Shown here: positions 1 through 39,305 of the stretch, in pieces
Layout of the letters: each line of letters opens with the position of its first letter
Position numbering within the stretch: the first letter of the stretch is position 1
Assembly (NCBI RefSeq): GCF_000165425.1
Contig: NW_001799166.1
Span: 312,459-376,458 of the forward strand
Direction of reading: 5' to 3'
Origin: Paramecium tetraurelia
Lineage: Eukaryota > Ciliophora > Oligohymenophorea > Peniculida > Parameciidae
DNA length: 64,000 nt
The notes under the pieces: model-generated
What the model was told of the DNA's origin: nothing
What the model saw: only the letters and a program-made list of their open reading frames with translations
Database searches by the model: none
Position numbers and translations under genes: made by a program

Positions 1-3000
1 ATTTTCTTCTGGATCCTGTTTACTACCATAACTTTCAGTTAGTTTGGGTAATATGACTTGGACATGTCCCTTTGGTCCCAAAGTTCCACTCTCAAGTAGG
101 GGTTTCATATGTTCAATGCATTGTGAATCAACGTATAATCTTGCTTACACATTGTCAAGTGCATTGGTTATCACATCCACATATTAAAATACATTAGTAT
201 ATAAACGCTCGGTTTATGGAGAGATTTTATCGAGTCTAGCAACAATCTTCATTTAAGGATTCATCTTCAGACATGCTCTGGCAGCAGTATATGATTTTGG
301 TTGTCTAAGATGCTTTTCTCTAAATAGAAACTATCTACTAAGATTAGATTTCTCTATCACATCAGGATCAGTGACAATGATATTCCCATTAATACCTAAT
401 CCTATCATTGCATAATTCTTAAGCAATTCGCATCCTATTGCACCAGCTCCAATCAAAAGTAATTTGCACTTTTCGATTGCCTATTATAATTCCTTTCCCA
501 ATATTAGATTACCATCTAACAATTCTTCGCATGTATGGAAATAGCATTATCTTATTGGCATATACTTATGAGTAATTGCTTTGATGATTTCTTAACATAC
601 TATTCCACCTAAGTAAGCAGCCTATGGAGGGAATATTTGATTGCCAGTCTTTTAGAACAATTCATTGATTTCTCCACTTTAATTAGAAAATCGATTCATT
701 TGCTCATTAATTACTGTGTACTTCTATTCATCCAAAATAAAGTTTGGATCAAATATGGGATCAGTCATAATTGCACTCATCTGTTTATTTTAAAGAACAA
801 TCTTTTATTTAATTGTCTATCCTCTTCCATTTCTCAAATACTTACCAAACTAACTCAAATCTCCCACATTAATGGTTGATTTATTGATTACTTTTACAAC
901 AGTTAATTATTAATTATTGAGTGATTTGCCATCCTCTTATATGATTTCTTTGAGTTCAATGACATCATTTGGACTCAAATTGTGCTTCCCTTTAATCTCT
1001 ATAATACCTTGATCTTAATCAATATTTTCAATAATGAATTCCTAAACTTATTCTCCATCTGCATCATTCACTGTAAATTGATCTCCCAAATCAATCATAA
1101 TCCTTCCATAAACAGAGACCAACTATGATACAATCATACCAATTTTGTATTCTCTACAGATTGCTGATATTGTATTGACAATTTCAAGTGAATCCACTTC
1201 GCACAAACATACCACTTAATAATTCAAACTCTTAATAGAAGATATTATATCAGTAGAATAGTCAATCTAAACATAAGGATTTAACCCTTATAAATGTAGT
1301 AAACTCTGTTCTAATCTGCTTGACTCTTCATTTTATACAAAAAATTATCCTAAATTATTGAGTTTCTTGTCTTCTACTATGGTCAGTCTTTTCAGACCTG
1401 ATAACACAAGATTCTTGGCTGTTTCAATACCTAATGCTCCCAATCCATAAATGATTACACTCGCTTATGATTATTTACTTACAGAATCTAGACCCATGAC
1501 ACCTATATATCTGGACATCAAATTTTGAACTTCTGCATTTTAAATATCAAATTATCTGTTGCTAACATTACTCTCACTTACATCTATCTCTGGTAATTGA
1601 CTTTATAAAAATTCGCTTATTTCTTCCTTCTTCCTATAATGTTATTTCTTTTTCTCCTATTGTATCTGAGTATATGATTGTCTTTGAATTATCGATAATA
1701 TCTTTTTATCTGATTAATGAGTTATGCAAACTTTCAATTTCTCAAGTTCTTTTTTTAATGCTTCAAATTCTGCTGTTAAAATGCTCTTGAATTTCTATGG
1801 CTATTATTAGAATGGAGCAGAGATATTATGATTCTAAGTACAATGATAACTGACTGGCAAATCAGCTTCATCTATCCATTATTATACTTCTTTAATGATA
1901 ACATCTTTTCTCAAATAAAAACTCTTTTAAATAACCTCTTCAAAACCTGCTGGTGGTTTCTACAATTATTCTATCATTGCATATCTAATGTTAGCCAATT
2001 TAACAATATTGCAATAACCTCTGTTATTCTTCTCACCATCTACTGTTCCCATACTGCTTTCCCAACCTGGCTCATTGAAATATACATATTCAGACATAAC
2101 CATTGCTTGAATGGAAACCAAGATCTGCCACAACGTTGACTCATTTGCTTTCCAATTATCTCCCCAAGTACCTAATAAACTTAGACATACCTTTCCACAA
2201 TTATAAAGATTGGGATTGAATCTAACCTTTCCATGTCCAGTTGTTTCTAATAAACATTTAGGAGGCCTGGAAGGATAATCATCACAAAATAAAAAATTGT
2301 ATAAAAAGGCTCCATGAGCATACGGGGTTCCACTTGAACCAAATATCATAGCTTGCATAGCATCCATTCTGTCTTTATCGTATCTTAAGAATATGGAATT
2401 TGTCAATTAAAGTGGCAAGTTCTCACCAATATCTGACAACTCCTTTATGATTCTATTCATCTTCTTATTTGGAGGGGATGAAGACAAATGAGAATAAGCC
2501 TCTTCCAATTGCTTTTTCCATCCTGGTTGTTTGATTACTTCACTTGTTTTCAGCACTAAGGGCTTCATTATCATAGGATAGAGATAAGCAGGATCCTATA
2601 TTTACTAAGATTCAGTCTCTTCGAATTTTACATCAATATATTTGTTCTTTTCTAAAACAATAACTAATTGATTGAAGAACTCTTGAAGGTCCTTCAAAAC
2701 TTCACTTAATTGTGTATCTTGATTTGAAATACCCTTAATTATTTTCTAATTCAATTCTGGATCCTCTTTGCTTTGAATAAATGCTGACTCATTATTAACT
2801 TTTTGTATAACTTCAAACAATGAGACATCCCCATAATCTTTACAAGTGAAGAGATGCATGGTTTCTTCAGTTAAAAACTTTTTTAATAATTCAAAGACTA
2901 TCTGAATGACTTCAAATTTCTCTGTTATTGTTTGACTCTTGCTTAAGGATGATAATATACTCTTGATAACTGGTATGAGACATGAATCTTCTACCATAAG

Positions 3001-4263
3001 AATGTAATCTAGATTTAGGTTTCTTAATTTCTTAAAAATTTCAGTCAATATCTTCCATCTATACCCTTCAGCTTATTAATAAATCAAATCAGAATCCAAA
3101 ATCTGGACTTCTTTCTTTTTCTATTAAGTTTGATAGGTTGAGGAATAATTGATATCTCCATAACCAATACCCTTAGGTTTAGACCCCTTCTGTTTATTAT
3201 TCGAACTTGCTTATGGAGCTGCTTTAACTGGTTCTTCAACTTTCTTTGGTGGCTACTTTTCCACTTTCTTTTATTTCAAATCTAATGAATTAGCTTCATA
3301 GTATTGATGCAATCTCAATAGCAACTAATCAGTTTATTATTCAGTGTAATTATTAAGGTTCACTTGCAATAGATTCTCATAAACCACTTAATGGAATATC
3401 GATGTGTCCTTAGGGTCTTCTAGACTCAAGCTAATCACATTAGTGAGCCAATCCTAACTTATAATTCTTTAACACCAATCTTAACTCTCAAATAACAAAC
3501 ACTCGTACAATAACATATTGACAGTTGACTTATTATCAAATTTCTCCTAAGCTAATTATATCAATAGGGAGTGAATCAATCCTTTTTTTGATAATTTCTT
3601 GCATAATTTGGTTTTTGTGTTGTCAATATTAGTGCTTTTTTAAAATACGTAGATTTTTTCAAGTTTGCTAAATTATTGTCCCATTATTCGAATTCCCTTC
3701 TATTCAAAATAGACTGTTTGATTATGATATAATTGATTATTATAATACACTAGATCAGCCTAACACTTGAGATCAGTTTTATTGAATGTCTTCTACATTC
3801 CTAATATGACGTTCGTATAAATTAAAATGCATGGCTTTTCCAATCCATATTGCATCTGATCTCCTTTGTCAATCCATGCATACTTGTTATTTACTTGATG
3901 AGGAAACTCCTATAGGAATGCTTCAGGTATATCAGGTGGTGCAACATAAGAGCTTTTACTTAATAATTATAAAGGTAAATCATTGAGAGGAGTATCAAGA
4001 ATGTCATCATAGACTTGAATAAGTAGTTGTTCATCACAATTTTCAATGAGGGAGTTAGCCAATTCTTTGATGCAGTTATTCTTCAAGTAATCATTTTTCA
4101 AAGATTTGATGTATTGATACAGAGCCTTCTATTAGTAGATCTTCTCAAAGCTTGTCAACAGTTTGAATTCCTATAGTGTTGTAAACTCAATATTATTGCA
4201 GACTTCTTCGAGGGTTTGCTCCTTAAAGATATAAACATCTTTTCCATAATCTTCATAAAACAT
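1..4263 (-). CDS. E2-E1 fusion: BIRC6/UBE2O-class UBC domain joined to ubiquitin-activating enzyme (3' partial)
   Basis: One minus-strand frame is open from the ATG at 4263 to the left edge (1421 codons) with no in-frame TGA and no intron. Residues 1-600 are helical and unrecognised, with a linker carrying GIGYG as in BIRC6. The UBC fold spans about 600-770 and has [19 protein letters not shown]; the candidate catalytic Cys is about residue 693. After about 170 residues E1 begins. The first ThiF-like repeat has [12 protein letters not shown] (about 940), an FCCH-like segment has [10 protein letters not shown] (about 1060), and the adenylation repeat has [12 protein letters not shown] (1272) and [18 protein letters not shown]. 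The frame leaves the window at [14 protein letters not shown], just before the region that carries the E1 catalytic Cys in this family. E1 adenylates and thioesterifies ubiquitin; E2 accepts it. Seen: the continuous frame. Inferred: one polypeptide doing both steps. Confidence 0.9.
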
Positions 4264-4312: not shown

Positions 4313-5822
4313 ATGGATCAAAACCCTGAATAAGATAGAGATTGGGATGATTTAAAAGGTGTATTAGCTGAAGACATCATTAATAAATTCAAAGAAGTAG
4401 GTCCAAAGGTTTATTCTCACCAATATGAATTCATAAATTACTGTCTAGGACAGAATGTCAATTAACAATCTCCTGTGATTGCTCTAAGAAGTCAAACAGG
4501 CAGTGGAAAGACTCTGTGCTTCCAATCTCTCATTTATTAGGAATTCAAGGAAAAAAATCAAAAAATTAGTGAACAGAAATAAATCAAGTAGAAAGACAAT
4601 ACAATGAAGGAAGTTAGAATGTTATACCCATACACAATAGTTTTGGGATAGACTATATACTTAAAATAACATGAGGAGTATTTCAGAAAGCATTTACCAG
4701 AGAGATTGAAAAATGAAAATTTAAAATTTTAAACTTTCTTTGCATTTACAAAAGACAATGTATTATATTTCATTATTAATGTAGTAATTTCAATAAGTAA
4801 AAGAGAATAGAATTGAAGACGCTGATTGCTAGGTGTATCTATGTCATCCTAGCAAAATGTTAGTGGGATTGAAAAACCGTATAATAAATGTGTCAAATCT
4901 TCGATATTTGATAATTGATGAGGCTGATCAATTATTGGAGAAGAATGAATAAAATTAAGCTAGAGTTGAGACCATGCAATTGATCTAATTCATTCTTGGA
5001 TAAACCAATAATCAAAGTTATTAAATTGTTTTTGTGAGTGCTAGTTTGAAACCTGAAGAAATTTAAAATCTCATTAAGGAATGTGTTCAAAATAATATTG
5101 ATGCAAGCAAGAAAGTTGATTCTAGATTCTTGCACAAAGATGAGGATGATATCTAAGAAGTTGTTTGTAACTTAAAAGTTATCCCATCAATTCAATAACA
5201 GATTTCTCCTTATACAATTGTTCATATGTATAAAGAGGCTCAAGAATAACCTGAATAGATCTTAGTAGATTTATTAAAGGATGTTTTTGATAAATTTACA
5301 GAGGCTTAGGTTATGATATTCTTTAACAAAAAAACCATTGTTAATGAATTGATAAATTTGTTTAAAAAGTCTTAGAAATTGGAATACATAGTTAAAAATA
5401 ATTGGATTGGAGAATGCACTGGAGACACCAATTAAGTAGATAGAGAAATAGTGAGGAAAGAATTTAAGGATGGAAAAAAGAAGATCTTACTCTGTACAGA
5501 TGTTTTATAAAGAGGAATGGATTTTAGAAAAGTGAGAGTCATTATTCATTATGGATTACCAATTACACCAGCAGGAGAATTTAAAGAAGAGAGGTAATCT
5601 TATATCATTTAAGTATCTAGCTATTATCAACGTTCTGGAAGAACAGGAAGAGCAAAGGATGAAGGAGTGGTTGTCTCTTTGTTATTGGAAGAAGATCTTA
5701 AATAGAAAAGACAAGAGAAATTAGTGGAAAGTTTAGTGATGAACAATTCAAAAATACAAAAATACGATTAGAAACAATTCTGCACTGATTTGGCTAAATT
5801 ATTGAATTTCAATAAAGAGTGA
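4313..5822 (+). CDS. DEAD-box RNA helicase
   Basis: About 494 residues after removing one 25-nt intron (GTATTA...TGTAG). Motif I is SQTGSGKT (about 60-67), motif II is DEAD (about 194), motif III appears as SAS rather than SAT, a conserved LLCTDVLQRGMD segment precedes motif VI, and motif VI is QRSGRTGRA (about 430). These define a superfamily-2 DEAD-box ATPase that unwinds or remodels RNA. The order and the short N-terminus are reminiscent of the DDX19/Dbp5 group, but I cannot assign the subfamily. A 27-nt GTAATC...CTAG stretch just before motif VI could be a further in-frame intron. It starts only 49 nt from the divergent E2-E1 start, so the two genes probably share a promoter region. Confidence 0.9.
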
Positions 5823-33973: not shown

Positions 33974-35023
33974 TCATTGATAGAAGTCTATGAGAAATAG
34001 TTATAAATGCTCTATGGTTTTATTAAAGTATTATGTTATTTTTTCATCAAAATTTGGTCGTAAGTTAAGTAACTTTTCAATTTCATCAGAAGGGTAAGTT
34101 CCATAAATTATTTAATTGCTTGAAAATAAAGTCTATTGTGGATCTGCTTTTAAAATATATTTTTGATTCTTTGTTTCCTCTATTGTTAATTGAATCAAAT
34201 TTTGTTGAGGTTGGTATTAAGACTTTAAACAGGTGTATTTTTTCAAATATAAATGTTGAAGAGTACTAATCAGCATAATAATTGCAAATTAGCTTGTATT
34301 TGTGAATTCAAAGAGAATAAATGCAAATCTAAAAAAGAGCAAAACTTCCATAATAATCATTGATTATTGATCTAATGTGATTTCGTTATTTAAATGGGAT
34401 ATGTAAGGGGTTCTCACAGATACAAAAGCTGTAAACTGATTCTTCTCATTTAAAAACAGTTACGAAAACAAAAAGTGTTTTATTTCAATACTCACAATAT
34501 CAGGATGAGTAAAATAGGCCATGTTTTCGAAGAAGAATTTGATTGCATTAATTAGGATAAATTGAGAATTGTCTTCTTTTATCTTATTTCCAGGGGATTT
34601 TATGTAATTAAAGAGATTTTGAGGAATTGTTGAAAATGATTTTTAAAATATTCCCAAACACCAGGCCTTGAATTTCTCATTTATTGTTTGAGGAAGCTTC
34701 AAAGTGGTTTTTTTAACCTTTTTTAGATTTGCTAGACTGTGTTAGTATGGGGATTCATTAATTACTCTTTATAATCTTCTGATAAATCTAAGAACGATCA
34801 AAAATATTCGTAATCTTTTCTTTATTCCAATTCTATTGGATTGTTTCAACAAATAGCTTGCATTAGAAAAAAGAGTCTATTGCTCCTTTGGATAATTCAA
34901 CACAGCCTTTTTGGGTGATTCCCTGAATGTAGTGAGACTCTCGTATTTGGAATAGTTTGATCTGCTAGAATTAAGCTGAACTGGTTGCTTAATTAAATCT
35001 TTGAATTCATCCGAAAAAATCAT
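33974..35023 (-). CDS. Unknown protein, third member of the tandem family
   Basis: 349 residues with no required intron. A 70-residue polar N-terminus is followed by KKRLRIFLIVLRFIRRLQRV, the family's basic helix. Then come INAIKFFFENMAYFTHPD, FVSVRTPYISHL and a C-terminal helix ITQYFNKTIEHLQLF. It is clearly the closest relative of the preceding gene: same order, same THPD/THPH box and same spacing. The gap to the next paralogue's 3' end is 46 nt. The function is unknown. Confidence 0.65.
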
Positions 35024-35069
35024 ATAAATATTATTTTAGATTTTATATACACAATATGATCAATAATAA

Positions 35070-36567
35070 TCAAAATTTATAAAGAAATAAATTATTAAGT
35101 ATTCTTTTAAAGCATTTCTTAATTGATGAATGCCATGAGATTTTGGTAAACAATGGACTCAATTCATCCATTCTATATGTACCAATTATTAGCTCCTCTT
35201 TCTCTACTTAAATACACTCCTATAGAGCGTAATCTTTTTTGTTAACTTATGCAAATTTAAATTAAATTAACTTATAGTTGCCACTTAAATCATTCACTGT
35301 TGGTAAATCCGTAAATGTTTTCATAAACAAATACTGCAATAAAGTAATCAAAACTCTTATAAGAAAGATACTATTGGGTTTATTGATATTAATCACTTTT
35401 GGATTATTTATTGATAGCATCAATCCTTAAAGTAAATTGTAAATTATAGATTCTGAATAAATCATCACTCTCTATTCATCTGCGATGATTTTATATTTGC
35501 TTGATAAGTAAGTCGTACGTTTAGAGACAAATTTACTAAAGAACTTTCTTTATTCTTCAAACAGGTCTTTGTACATGATTAACCCAAATTCTCTAATGAA
35601 TAATTTCTGATTAGTAAATAATTCGAATGAAGTCATAAAATACCAGAAAACTTGAGTTGTTACATTAATTGCATGATCTAATTGTAATGGTGCTAATTGA
35701 TTTTCCTAATATAATTCAATAAATTTACTATAAAATTGATTTTGTGATCATCAAGTGTTTCGGATTGAATAATAGAAATAGCCTTCGTAAATACCATTTA
35801 ACACCATTATTTGATTTTTATTGCATTAATAGTTGTGTTGAAAGATAATTCCTGTTTGCAATCAATTTCTTTTGATATCGCCACATCCCATTATTCCCTT
35901 TTTGGTCTTATTAAAATCTATATTCTGCATAAGGCTCTGGCTACTTAAAAGATGGATTTTAATTTTTTCAACCATTTATTTTAAAAGGTAAAGTTAGTTA
36001 ACAAATTCTGAGCATGACCAGCAAAATTTCTGATTCCTTTAATGTTTCTTCCAGGTTTTATTGACTTATCTTTGTGTTGTTATAATGAGGCTTACCTTTT
36101 CACTGTGACTAATTAGTTTCTTTCAGTTTAAGTATCCAAAGTTAAATATTTTTTATTTTATTAATTTTCTTAAGTATCTTAACCAACTTCATCAAAATTT
36201 TGATTCTACCTGATTTAGCGTTGATTTTTTTAATTTTGGTATTCATTAGTTACTGGATTCAATTTAAATTTGTGAGAACTTATGTCTGTTTTCTGTCGTA
36301 ATTAATGAGAATTCATTTCATCTTAGACTAAAATATTTTTGTTATGTGCTCTTTAAGAAGCATCATACCTTTATTCATTCCTTTCTACTGTTATAATATT
36401 TAAATACAGTGAGCTATGCTATAGTTTTCGGTGTTCTAAACATTTCTTTCGGAACTTTAAGAAGTTTCTTTTCTCACCCATTACCTATTTGTAGGTAAAT
36501 CTAAAGAATCAGATCTTTATTCTTTGTTAGTGTTTTTAATTGTTGGTAATCTATTTTGATGATGCAT
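35070..36567 (-). CDS. Unknown protein, fourth member of the tandem family
   Basis: About 477 residues. The first exon starts at 36567 and is joined by an unusually long 41-nt GTATGA...TTTTAG interval. If that is not an intron, the start is the ATG at 36316. A 23-nt intron lies near the middle. A long Gln/Asn-rich N-terminus leads to the basic helix (NKWLKKLKSIFQVARALCRI), the motif FVSKRTTYLSSK and paired hydrophobic helices (RVLITLLQYLFMKTF). Similarity to the three genes downstream is clear at these blocks. The start is 30 nt from the divergent PG-rich gene. Confidence 0.6.
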
Positions 36568-37713: not shown

Positions 37714-37817
37714 TAATTTATATATTTATATATTGGATTCTTTTTATCCATTTTAAAATAATACATTTTCAAATACTTATTATTATTTTAACAGAAAAAT
37801 AATTCAATAATTGAAAA

Positions 37818-39305
37818 ATGTACTATGCAGAAGAATATTCACCTCCACGGATTCCTTAACTCAAACCCCTTGCTATTATTGAATAGGACGAACTTATGAC
37901 TTTGAAATAAAAAAAATTGGAATTGGAACTTAAATTAAAATAGAGAGAATTAGAAATGAAGTAAAATCAAAAACAAGATTAAAATGATGATCAGGAGAAC
38001 ACTATTTTAAAGATTCAATAGACTCAAGAACCAAAAAAAGGAAAAGGAGGATCGAAAACAAAGTAAACAGGATAATAATAGTAATAATCATAATCCACTT
38101 TGGCATAAATGAAGGAAGCTGAAAGAGTTGAAAATGAAAAAAAAGAGATGTTATCAAAAATAACATTTTTAGAAAAAGAAAAAAAAGCACTCCAAAATTA
38201 ATTTGAATAATTAAAAGAATCCATAAGAGCTGATAATGTTTAACTTAAGGAATAAGCTATTAAAAGTAAGAGTGAAGCTACGACAATGTAAAAATAGAAG
38301 GATGATATTGAAAATGAAAAAAATGCCATGGTTAAAGAAAATAGAAAAGTCAAATAAGAAATGAAAATTTGGTAGGACAAATACAACGATCTAGTTAAAT
38401 CTGCTGCAGAAGCTGAAGCAAGAATAAAAGCTAATAAAGATGTTGTTAATGAAAGAGAGGAGAAAATTAAATGGATTGAAGATAGATTAAAAAAAGAAGA
38501 AGAATAGCATAAAAAAACTTAGGAAAGATGCATGGTCTTAGTTAATGAAATCAATTAATTAAAAAGAGAATGTGACAATTTCAGAAAAGACAAAGAAAGA
38601 TTATTAGATGAAATCTAATAAATTAATCAAAAGCATACTCTAAAGTATAGTGATCTAAACGAATAAGTGCTTCTCTATTAAAGAGAATTAAACGAATAAA
38701 AATTAGGACAATCAGAATTTAAGAGATTATTGGATCAAAAGAGCAATAGAATTAAAGATTTAGAATTTGAAAGAGAAAGATTATTAGTTAGAGTTTAAGA
38801 TTTGGATAGATTAGAACATAAATTGGGAGCCAGAGATAGAGAAATCATAGAATTGGAAGTTGAATTAGATAGAGTTAAGAGAATGAGAGGAACTCATATT
38901 GTTGAAAAGATAGTTCATCCAATTGGCTATGAGATTCCTAGGGAAGTGCCTGTGTATCCTCCTTAACAAGATCATGATGTTGTAAAGTTGAGGGAAGATC
39001 TTTTGTATTTGAAATAAGAGAAAGAAAGAGCATTGGATGAAGCCGAATATTGGAAGAATAGATATCAAGATCTAGAATTAGCAGAAGATAGAGCTGTTAA
39101 TTTAATGGCACATCAAAATAAGAATGAATCTGATCTTAATGTAAAGTTATAAGAAGCACGAAGCATTATGTTTACAAAAGTCATGGGTTTAATTAATGAT
39201 TTGAGTAAATTAAGAAGAACATCCATATCTAATGATGTAAAAGAAGCAATTGAGCAAGTTCTTAATAATCACAATGATATTTTGAAATACATAATGACAT
39301 AATGA
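37818..39305 (+). CDS. Long coiled-coil protein
   Basis: 495 residues in one uninterrupted exon. After a short Pro-containing start (EYSPPRIPQLKP), nearly the whole chain is Glu/Lys/Gln-rich heptad sequence, broken near residue 370 by VHPIGYEIPREVPVYPP. A last helix (KVMGLINDLSKLRRTS) closes it. This is typical of basal-body, striated-fibre or axonemal linkers. There is no specific family signature, so the role is inferred only from the fold. Confidence 0.82.

Follow-up and report, generated by a model that had tools for sequence, protein, structure and literature searches.

The sequence analysed here, referred to as the window, is a stretch of 64,000 nucleotides from Paramecium tetraurelia (contig NW_001799166.1; C154:312459-376458, with loci named by contig). 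Its left end is occupied by a gene on the minus strand that joins a ubiquitin-conjugating enzyme (E2) related to BIRC6, through a linker, to a ubiquitin-activating enzyme (E1). E1 and E2 are normally separate proteins that meet only transiently. The gene was read with genetic code 6, in which TAA and TAG encode glutamine and TGA is the sole stop codon. From position 4263 to position 1, its frame contains no TGA in 1421 codons; the other two frames of the same strand contain 44 and 75. A first-pass annotation of the window had placed E2 and E1 in a single TGA-free frame, and this frame indeed continues beyond the window. In the genome assembly the gene is completed at its stop side at C154:311144 to a total of 1850 amino acids, with one 25-nt intron at C154:311648.

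The features of the gene are collected in Table 1. C693 we take to be the catalytic Cys of the E2. The same annotation had claimed a complete E1 adenylation half. Two ThiF stretches (Pfam, 1.2e-60) and an E1_FCCH domain are present as described, while the active adenylation domain is not complete within the window: it breaks off at '...QDPEEN', six residues short of the E1 catalytic Cys. The catalytic Cys and the UFD, suspected to lie to the left of the window, were both recovered there, as the frame adds C1427, the SCCH domain and the UFD. The protein thus follows the canonical E1 order of inactive adenylation domain (IAD), FCCH, active adenylation domain (AAD), SCCH with its Cys, and UFD.

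Table 1 Features of the E2-E1 fusion gene within the window. Positions are those of the window, residues those of the encoded protein.
Feature	Position	Strand	Residues	Remark
Fusion gene, coding part in the window	1..4263	minus	1-1421 of 1850	ATG at 4263; leaves the window at position 1
Region placed as helical pre-UBC region of BIRC6	2578..3174	minus	364-562	KGIGYG and SCLIP motifs collinear; z 1.4 for this copy alone, not significant
BIRC6-homologous E2 region including post-UBC element	1864..2580	minus	562-800	
UBC fold, UQ_con	2095..2454	minus	604-723	Pfam 2.9e-19
E2 Cys	2185..2187	minus	C693	Aligned with GKVCLS of human BIRC6
Linker	1549..1863	minus	801-905	No stop, no Met
E1 inactive adenylation domain (IAD)	1066..1524	minus	914-1066	Arg equivalent to UBA6 R46 present
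E1_FCCH domain	811..990	minus	1092-1151	Pfam 3e-7
E1 active adenylation domain (AAD)	1..501	minus	1255-1421	Truncated by the window edge; adenylation residues intact

A search of the single available assembly (69,072,372 bases, 231 contigs) revealed the order E2-linker-E1 at seven loci on seven contigs: C154, C114, C61, C45, C53, C64 and C162. At six of the seven, the UBC motif, the SRYI start of the E1, the GAIGCE ATP loop and the IPYCTL Cys loop share one open frame, with 1746 codons in C154, 4687 in C114, 2284 in C61, 2112 in C45, 1816 in C53 and 4337 in C64. The seventh locus, C162, is a duplicate of C114; over 4138 codons the two are set apart by 15 indels whose length is no multiple of three, 13 of them single-base insertions in C162. 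These could possibly represent assembly base errors or very recent decay. One such 1-nt insertion lies in the linker, and no in-frame TGA was found among 4130 scored codons. Scans based on a few short peptide patterns detected no relative in viral contigs with window residues 602-1421, the E2 alignment or the E1 alignment, and none in prokaryote genome contigs with the E2 alignment as query.

Gene models for three fused loci (C154, C114, C61) and two stand-alone E1 genes (C202, C63) contain introns of 25-32 nt, although the C61 model runs into the neighbouring gene. Introns this short are in keeping with Paramecium, as are the genetic code and the presence of duplicated loci. Automatic splicing over-runs the true stop at C61, C45, C53 and C64, and possibly also the start of C64, whose full length is uncertain. 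Protein ends of C61, C45, C53, C64, C114, C196 and C63 were trimmed by eye, and the stand-alone C202 and C196 were joined by hand from frame pieces, so that their sequence around the splice sites may contain errors. The C114 model encodes 4498 amino acids with two introns, one exon spanning about 4,138 codons. A UBA domain and a RanBP-type zinc finger lie near its N-terminus. From the zinc finger to the BIRC6-like region, a stretch of approximately 2,600 residues gave no Pfam match at E<=0.01 and none to a solved chain at E<=1.

The first-pass annotation had assigned the E2 to a joint BIRC6/UBE2O class. Only the first half of this label was retained: the window E2 scored 190.6 bits against human BIRC6, clearly more than against UBE2O (114.5) or UBE2Z (98.1), and the match to BIRC6 extends over the post-UBC element. 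Over the E2 region, the window copy is 41% identical to human BIRC6 and 43% to chain 9qgg_A. Six of the seven copies, including the window copy, keep the GKVCLS-type Cys and are 45-50% identical to human BIRC6 in the UBC. By these comparisons, the E2 half is of the BIRC6 type and not of the UBE2O type. Upstream of the UBC, pairwise comparison with human BIRC6 gave significant z values of 16.5 for C64, 9.4 for C114 and 8.4 for C162, and weak values for C61 (2.8) and C45 (2.6). We read the long forms as probably related to BIRC6 outside the UBC as well, and the window copy as a short member of the family. Similarity to the BIRC6 tail past the post-UBC element was not significant. No BIR domain was matched in the genome, but 14 controls gave no match either. 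In the window copy, residues 1-570 had no match among solved structures at E<=10, and residues 1-360 showed no significant similarity to C61, C45, C53, C114 or C64 (z -0.8 to 1.5).

The genome contains 73 UQ_con matches. An unfused BIRC6-type E2 was not among the 32 candidates that were scored, the 73 matches not being checked one by one. Besides the seven loci, the E2 part of the query matches eight places, and since none of these exceeds 35.2 bits, no free BIRC6-type E2 is seen among the candidates scored.

Turning to the E1 half, the SCCH family was matched at twelve loci. Seven are the fused genes, C202, C196 and C63 stand alone, and C222 (46.8 bits) and C204 (25.5 bits) gave weak partial matches. 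Pfam recognised the UFD only in C64 among the fused copies; the E1 end of the others was read by alignment. At the ten adenylation sites of UBA6 named in excerpts of PMC9391358, and at the E1 catalytic Cys, six of seven fused copies carry the same residues as UBA6, and C53 differs at one site (Lys at the E502 position). Ordinary stand-alone UBA1 genes are also present in the genome. One of the stand-alone genes, the UBA1-related C63 (C63:180000-188500), has in its model a Ser at the position of the catalytic Cys (SPKSTFMNFP) and possibly encodes a catalytically dead E1.

Bit scores of the window copy did not separate UBA6 from UBA1, and its pairwise E1 identities differ little (UBA6 40.7%, yeast 38.8%, UBA1 38.3%, 9qgg 37.5%). 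A five-row E1 tree could not distinguish 'UBA6 orthologue' from 'outgroup', and larger trees were made instead. With database-checked references and 584 columns, the seven fused E1s grouped with human UBA6, and C202, C196 and C63 with the human and yeast UBA1 and the E1 of 9qgg (support 96/94). The same split was obtained with longer rows over 949 columns (96/96) and, leaving out C63, C53, C162 and C196, over 967 columns (98/97). Classification by phylogeny, proposed in the annotation, favours UBA6 for the E1 half. Taking the majority of five fused copies, 13 columns agree with UBA6 against both UBA1s, six with human UBA1 alone and two with ciliate UBA1 alone.

Further indications come from the inositol hexakisphosphate (InsP6) pocket of UBA6, for which ten residues are named in excerpts of PMC9391358. 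K644, K706 and K709 are found in all seven fused copies and are absent from both Paramecium UBA1s, as well as from human UBA1, whose letters at these positions are unchecked. Positions 652 and 687 are likewise basic in all seven, 687 being basic in UBA1 as well. Overall, the fused copies are basic at 5-6 of the seven basic pocket positions, and both Paramecium UBA1s at one. In eight of the 195 SCCH columns, all fused copies agree with UBA6 and not with ciliate UBA1. Three of these belong to the pocket's ten residues (hypergeometric p 0.005) and are the only ones of the eight where human UBA1 differs too; the reverse pattern occurs in one column.

The connection between the two halves was studied through nucleotide substitution, with ratios of nonsynonymous to synonymous substitution (dN/dS) calculated by Nei-Gojobori counting with our own script. 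Between C114 and C162, dN/dS is 0.081 over 4130 codons, with 0.046 in the UBC, 0.028 in the linker (107 codons), 0.082 in IAD and FCCH, and 0.020 in the AAD. These ratios show purifying selection on the E2, linker and E1 of this duplicate pair. The linker of C61 versus C53 has a dN/dS of 0.135 at dS 1.6; in the comparisons with C45 and C154, dS is at or close to saturation. Constrained between the two duplicates, the linker varies more than the other parts once the copies compared are further apart.

In the window copy, the coding signal of frame 0 is positive across the linker and near zero at residues 841-880, where another frame is higher; outside the linker, a single negative window was found in the E1 (residues 981-1020, -3.7). 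The linker holds one intron candidate (GTA...TAG, 20 nt, at residue 895), the removal of which would break the E1 frame because its length is not a multiple of three. A first count of intron motifs gave no excess.

The sharing of one frame, the recurrence at seven loci and the intact adenylation, E1-thioester and E2-thioester residues are established at the level of sequence. The window gene is probably one of seven fusion genes combining a BIRC6 (BRUCE) type E2/E3 with a UBA6-class ubiquitin E1, and would encode an all-in-one enzyme that charges its own E2.

Several results weigh against this. The pre-UBC region of the window copy (z 1.4) and of C53 (z 0.5) has no significant match to human BIRC6, and phmmer, queried with 1226 C114 residues that end before the UBC and cover the BIRC6-like region, matched no solved chain at E<=1, that of BIRC6 included. 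In C53 (C53:199000-208900), whose UBC identity to human BIRC6 is 39%, the E2 catalytic Cys is lost (YNFRRVWLDLLGTW) and the E1 Cys is kept, so that the proposed mode cannot hold for every copy; C53 is possibly an E1 with a pseudo-E2 attached. Of the three parts measured, the linker shows the highest dN in all three C61 pairs (C53 0.211, C45 0.265, C154 0.700). In the approximately unbiased (AU) test, a clade of all ciliate E1s gave p 0.062 over 584 columns, 0.055 over 949 and 0.029 over 967; the tested groups were chosen after the tree had been seen, the E1 trees lack a root, a single species represents UBA6, and the human UBA1 and yeast rows have an unusual letter make-up. Stricter counts, restricted to columns invariant in five fused copies (C53 and C162 left out), are nearly even, with ten columns shared with UBA6 only and nine shared with all UBA1s but not UBA6. 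Of the InsP6 pocket, S647, R691 and K714 are kept in none of the seven fused copies, and Y710 and W640 in four each.

The most serious alternative accepts the fusion but takes the E1 half as a duplicate of ciliate UBA1, with its likeness to UBA6 due to convergence or unequal rates. It would agree with the two AU tests that do not reject the all-ciliate clade at 0.05, with the near-even strict counts and with the small differences in identity of the window copy. The three trees support the other topology, and two long ciliate branches would be expected to attract each other, the opposite of what the trees present. Moreover, no invariant column is shared with Paramecium UBA1 and not with human UBA1, while four show the reverse and ten are shared with UBA6 alone; the majority counts (two against 13) and the pocket lysines kept in the fused copies likewise speak against this alternative. 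We regard a UBA1 duplicate as unlikely. Because of the AU values and the choice of groups after the tree, membership of the fused E1s in UBA6 is favoured by the sequence comparisons, not proven.

It is also conceivable, and in our view improbable, that two proteins arise from one gene, a read-through or fusion mRNA being followed by cleavage or internal initiation so that E1 and E2 act apart. The variability of the linker between C61 and C53, C45 or C154 and the 1-nt insertion in the C162 linker would be in line with this. On the other hand, no TGA separates UBC and E1 at six of seven loci, and the C114/C162 linker is under constraint. The annotation had considered a separate start ahead of residue 900; the linker holds no Met, and the first one past it, Met916, sits inside the first E1 motif, whereas the stand-alone C202 has its Met directly before FDENLYSRQ, as in ordinary UBA1. 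Finally, although all loci come from one assembly and the C162 indels suggest that base errors may occur, an assembly or annotation artefact joining adjacent E2 and E1 genes is hardly credible given the same junction on seven contigs, six times in one open frame and with constrained linkers.

If the fused genes are BIRC6-UBA6 enzymes, the E1 half would activate ubiquitin, form the thioester and pass ubiquitin to the attached E2 half. Transfer may occur in cis, the channelling proposed in the annotation, or, should the BIRC6 part form dimers, onto the second chain; the abstract of PMC10827748 describes human BIRC6 as an antiparallel dimer. In the long forms, the N-terminal arms would hold substrates for modification by the E2 half, so that the giants would unite E1, E2 and E3 in a single polypeptide. 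Other E2s would be served by the stand-alone UBA1 genes, and InsP6 may regulate the E1 half, as in human UBA6.

UBA6 is reported to be the partner of BIRC6 in mammals, and the two to cooperate on LC3B modification in human cells (both excerpts of PMC6863627), which makes the fusion a Rosetta-stone counterpart of a known pair. The annotation had read the fusion as a hint that this E2 class has a dedicated E1. This is supported in so far as the trees put the fused E1s beside UBA6, away from the cell's own UBA1. It is not universal: in entry 9qgg a BIRC6-type E2 is accompanied by an E1 whose identity is 64% to human UBA1 and 49% to UBA6, and a BIRC6-type E2 can thus also pair with a UBA1-type E1. 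We consider it an even question whether the UBA6-BIRC6 partnership is older than the split of ciliates and animals and became a single gene in ciliates, giving inositol-phosphate-regulated E1-E2-E3 megaenzymes of about 4,300-4,500 residues with the whole cascade in one chain.

A covalent E1-E2 pair is unexpected in a eukaryote and would offer a fixed complex for studying ubiquitin transfer, as well as independent genomic evidence linking BIRC6 and UBA6. InsP6 regulation of the fused E1 is a directly testable prediction. Should the tree hold, UBA6 would be much older than stated in the excerpts of the papers cited here, which place it in chordates and echinoderms (PMC12355090) or in vertebrates and sea urchin (PMC9391358), or trace it to an ancestor shared by fungi, slime moulds and multicellular eukaryotes (PMC11864663) or to one shared by fungi and multicellular eukaryotes (PMC11354881). 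Searches of open-licence PubMed Central papers, by title and abstract opening, brought up no mention of a eukaryotic ubiquitin E1-E2 fusion or a ciliate BIRC6. The architecture may already be present, without comment, among deposited ciliate proteins.

Some additional observations concern the E1 genes and the surroundings of the fusion gene. Two elements shared by human UBA1, yeast and the 9qgg E1 are missing from the window copy when aligned (1-501 and 502-811, minus strand): most of the E1 four-helix bundle, and the RYDxQ segment ahead of the AAD (RYDAL in UBA6). C61, C45 and C53 retain an RYxDL segment. At C185:33000-39000, about 2.3 kb separate a ThiF-type E1-like gene (minus, 34553-35429) from a UQ_con E2 (plus, 37772-38167); the two are on opposite strands and unfused. 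In the window, about 50 bases separate the start of the fusion gene (4263) from a plus-strand ATG at 4313, which is probably the start of a DEAD-box helicase gene with domains at 4710-5819. A tRNA and Rfam search of the window gave no match.

Among known systems, the bacterial antiphage enzyme Cap2 also has E1 and E2 modules in one chain but acts in another pathway and is not known to have the FCCH, SCCH and UFD domains found in ubiquitin E1s. Cap2 belongs to the cyclic oligonucleotide-based antiphage signalling system (CBASS) and is named as an E1-E2 fusion in excerpts of PMC12355090. UBE2O resembles the fused proteins as a large E2/E3 hybrid with a related UBC, but matches the window E2 less well than BIRC6. 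Human UBA6, the E1 for ubiquitin and FAT10, shares with the fused E1s the domain order, the tree grouping favoured here and part of the InsP6 pocket; unlike UBA6, the fused E1 is covalently joined to an E2 and does not keep the three pocket residues named above. The closest parallel for the E2 half is human BIRC6 (BRUCE/Apollon), which is similar in the UBC of six copies, in the helical pre-UBC region of C64, C114 and C162, and in the giant size of C114 and C64. It differs from the Paramecium proteins in that C114 begins with a UBA domain and a RanBP-type zinc finger and the fused copies carry an E1 at their C-terminus.

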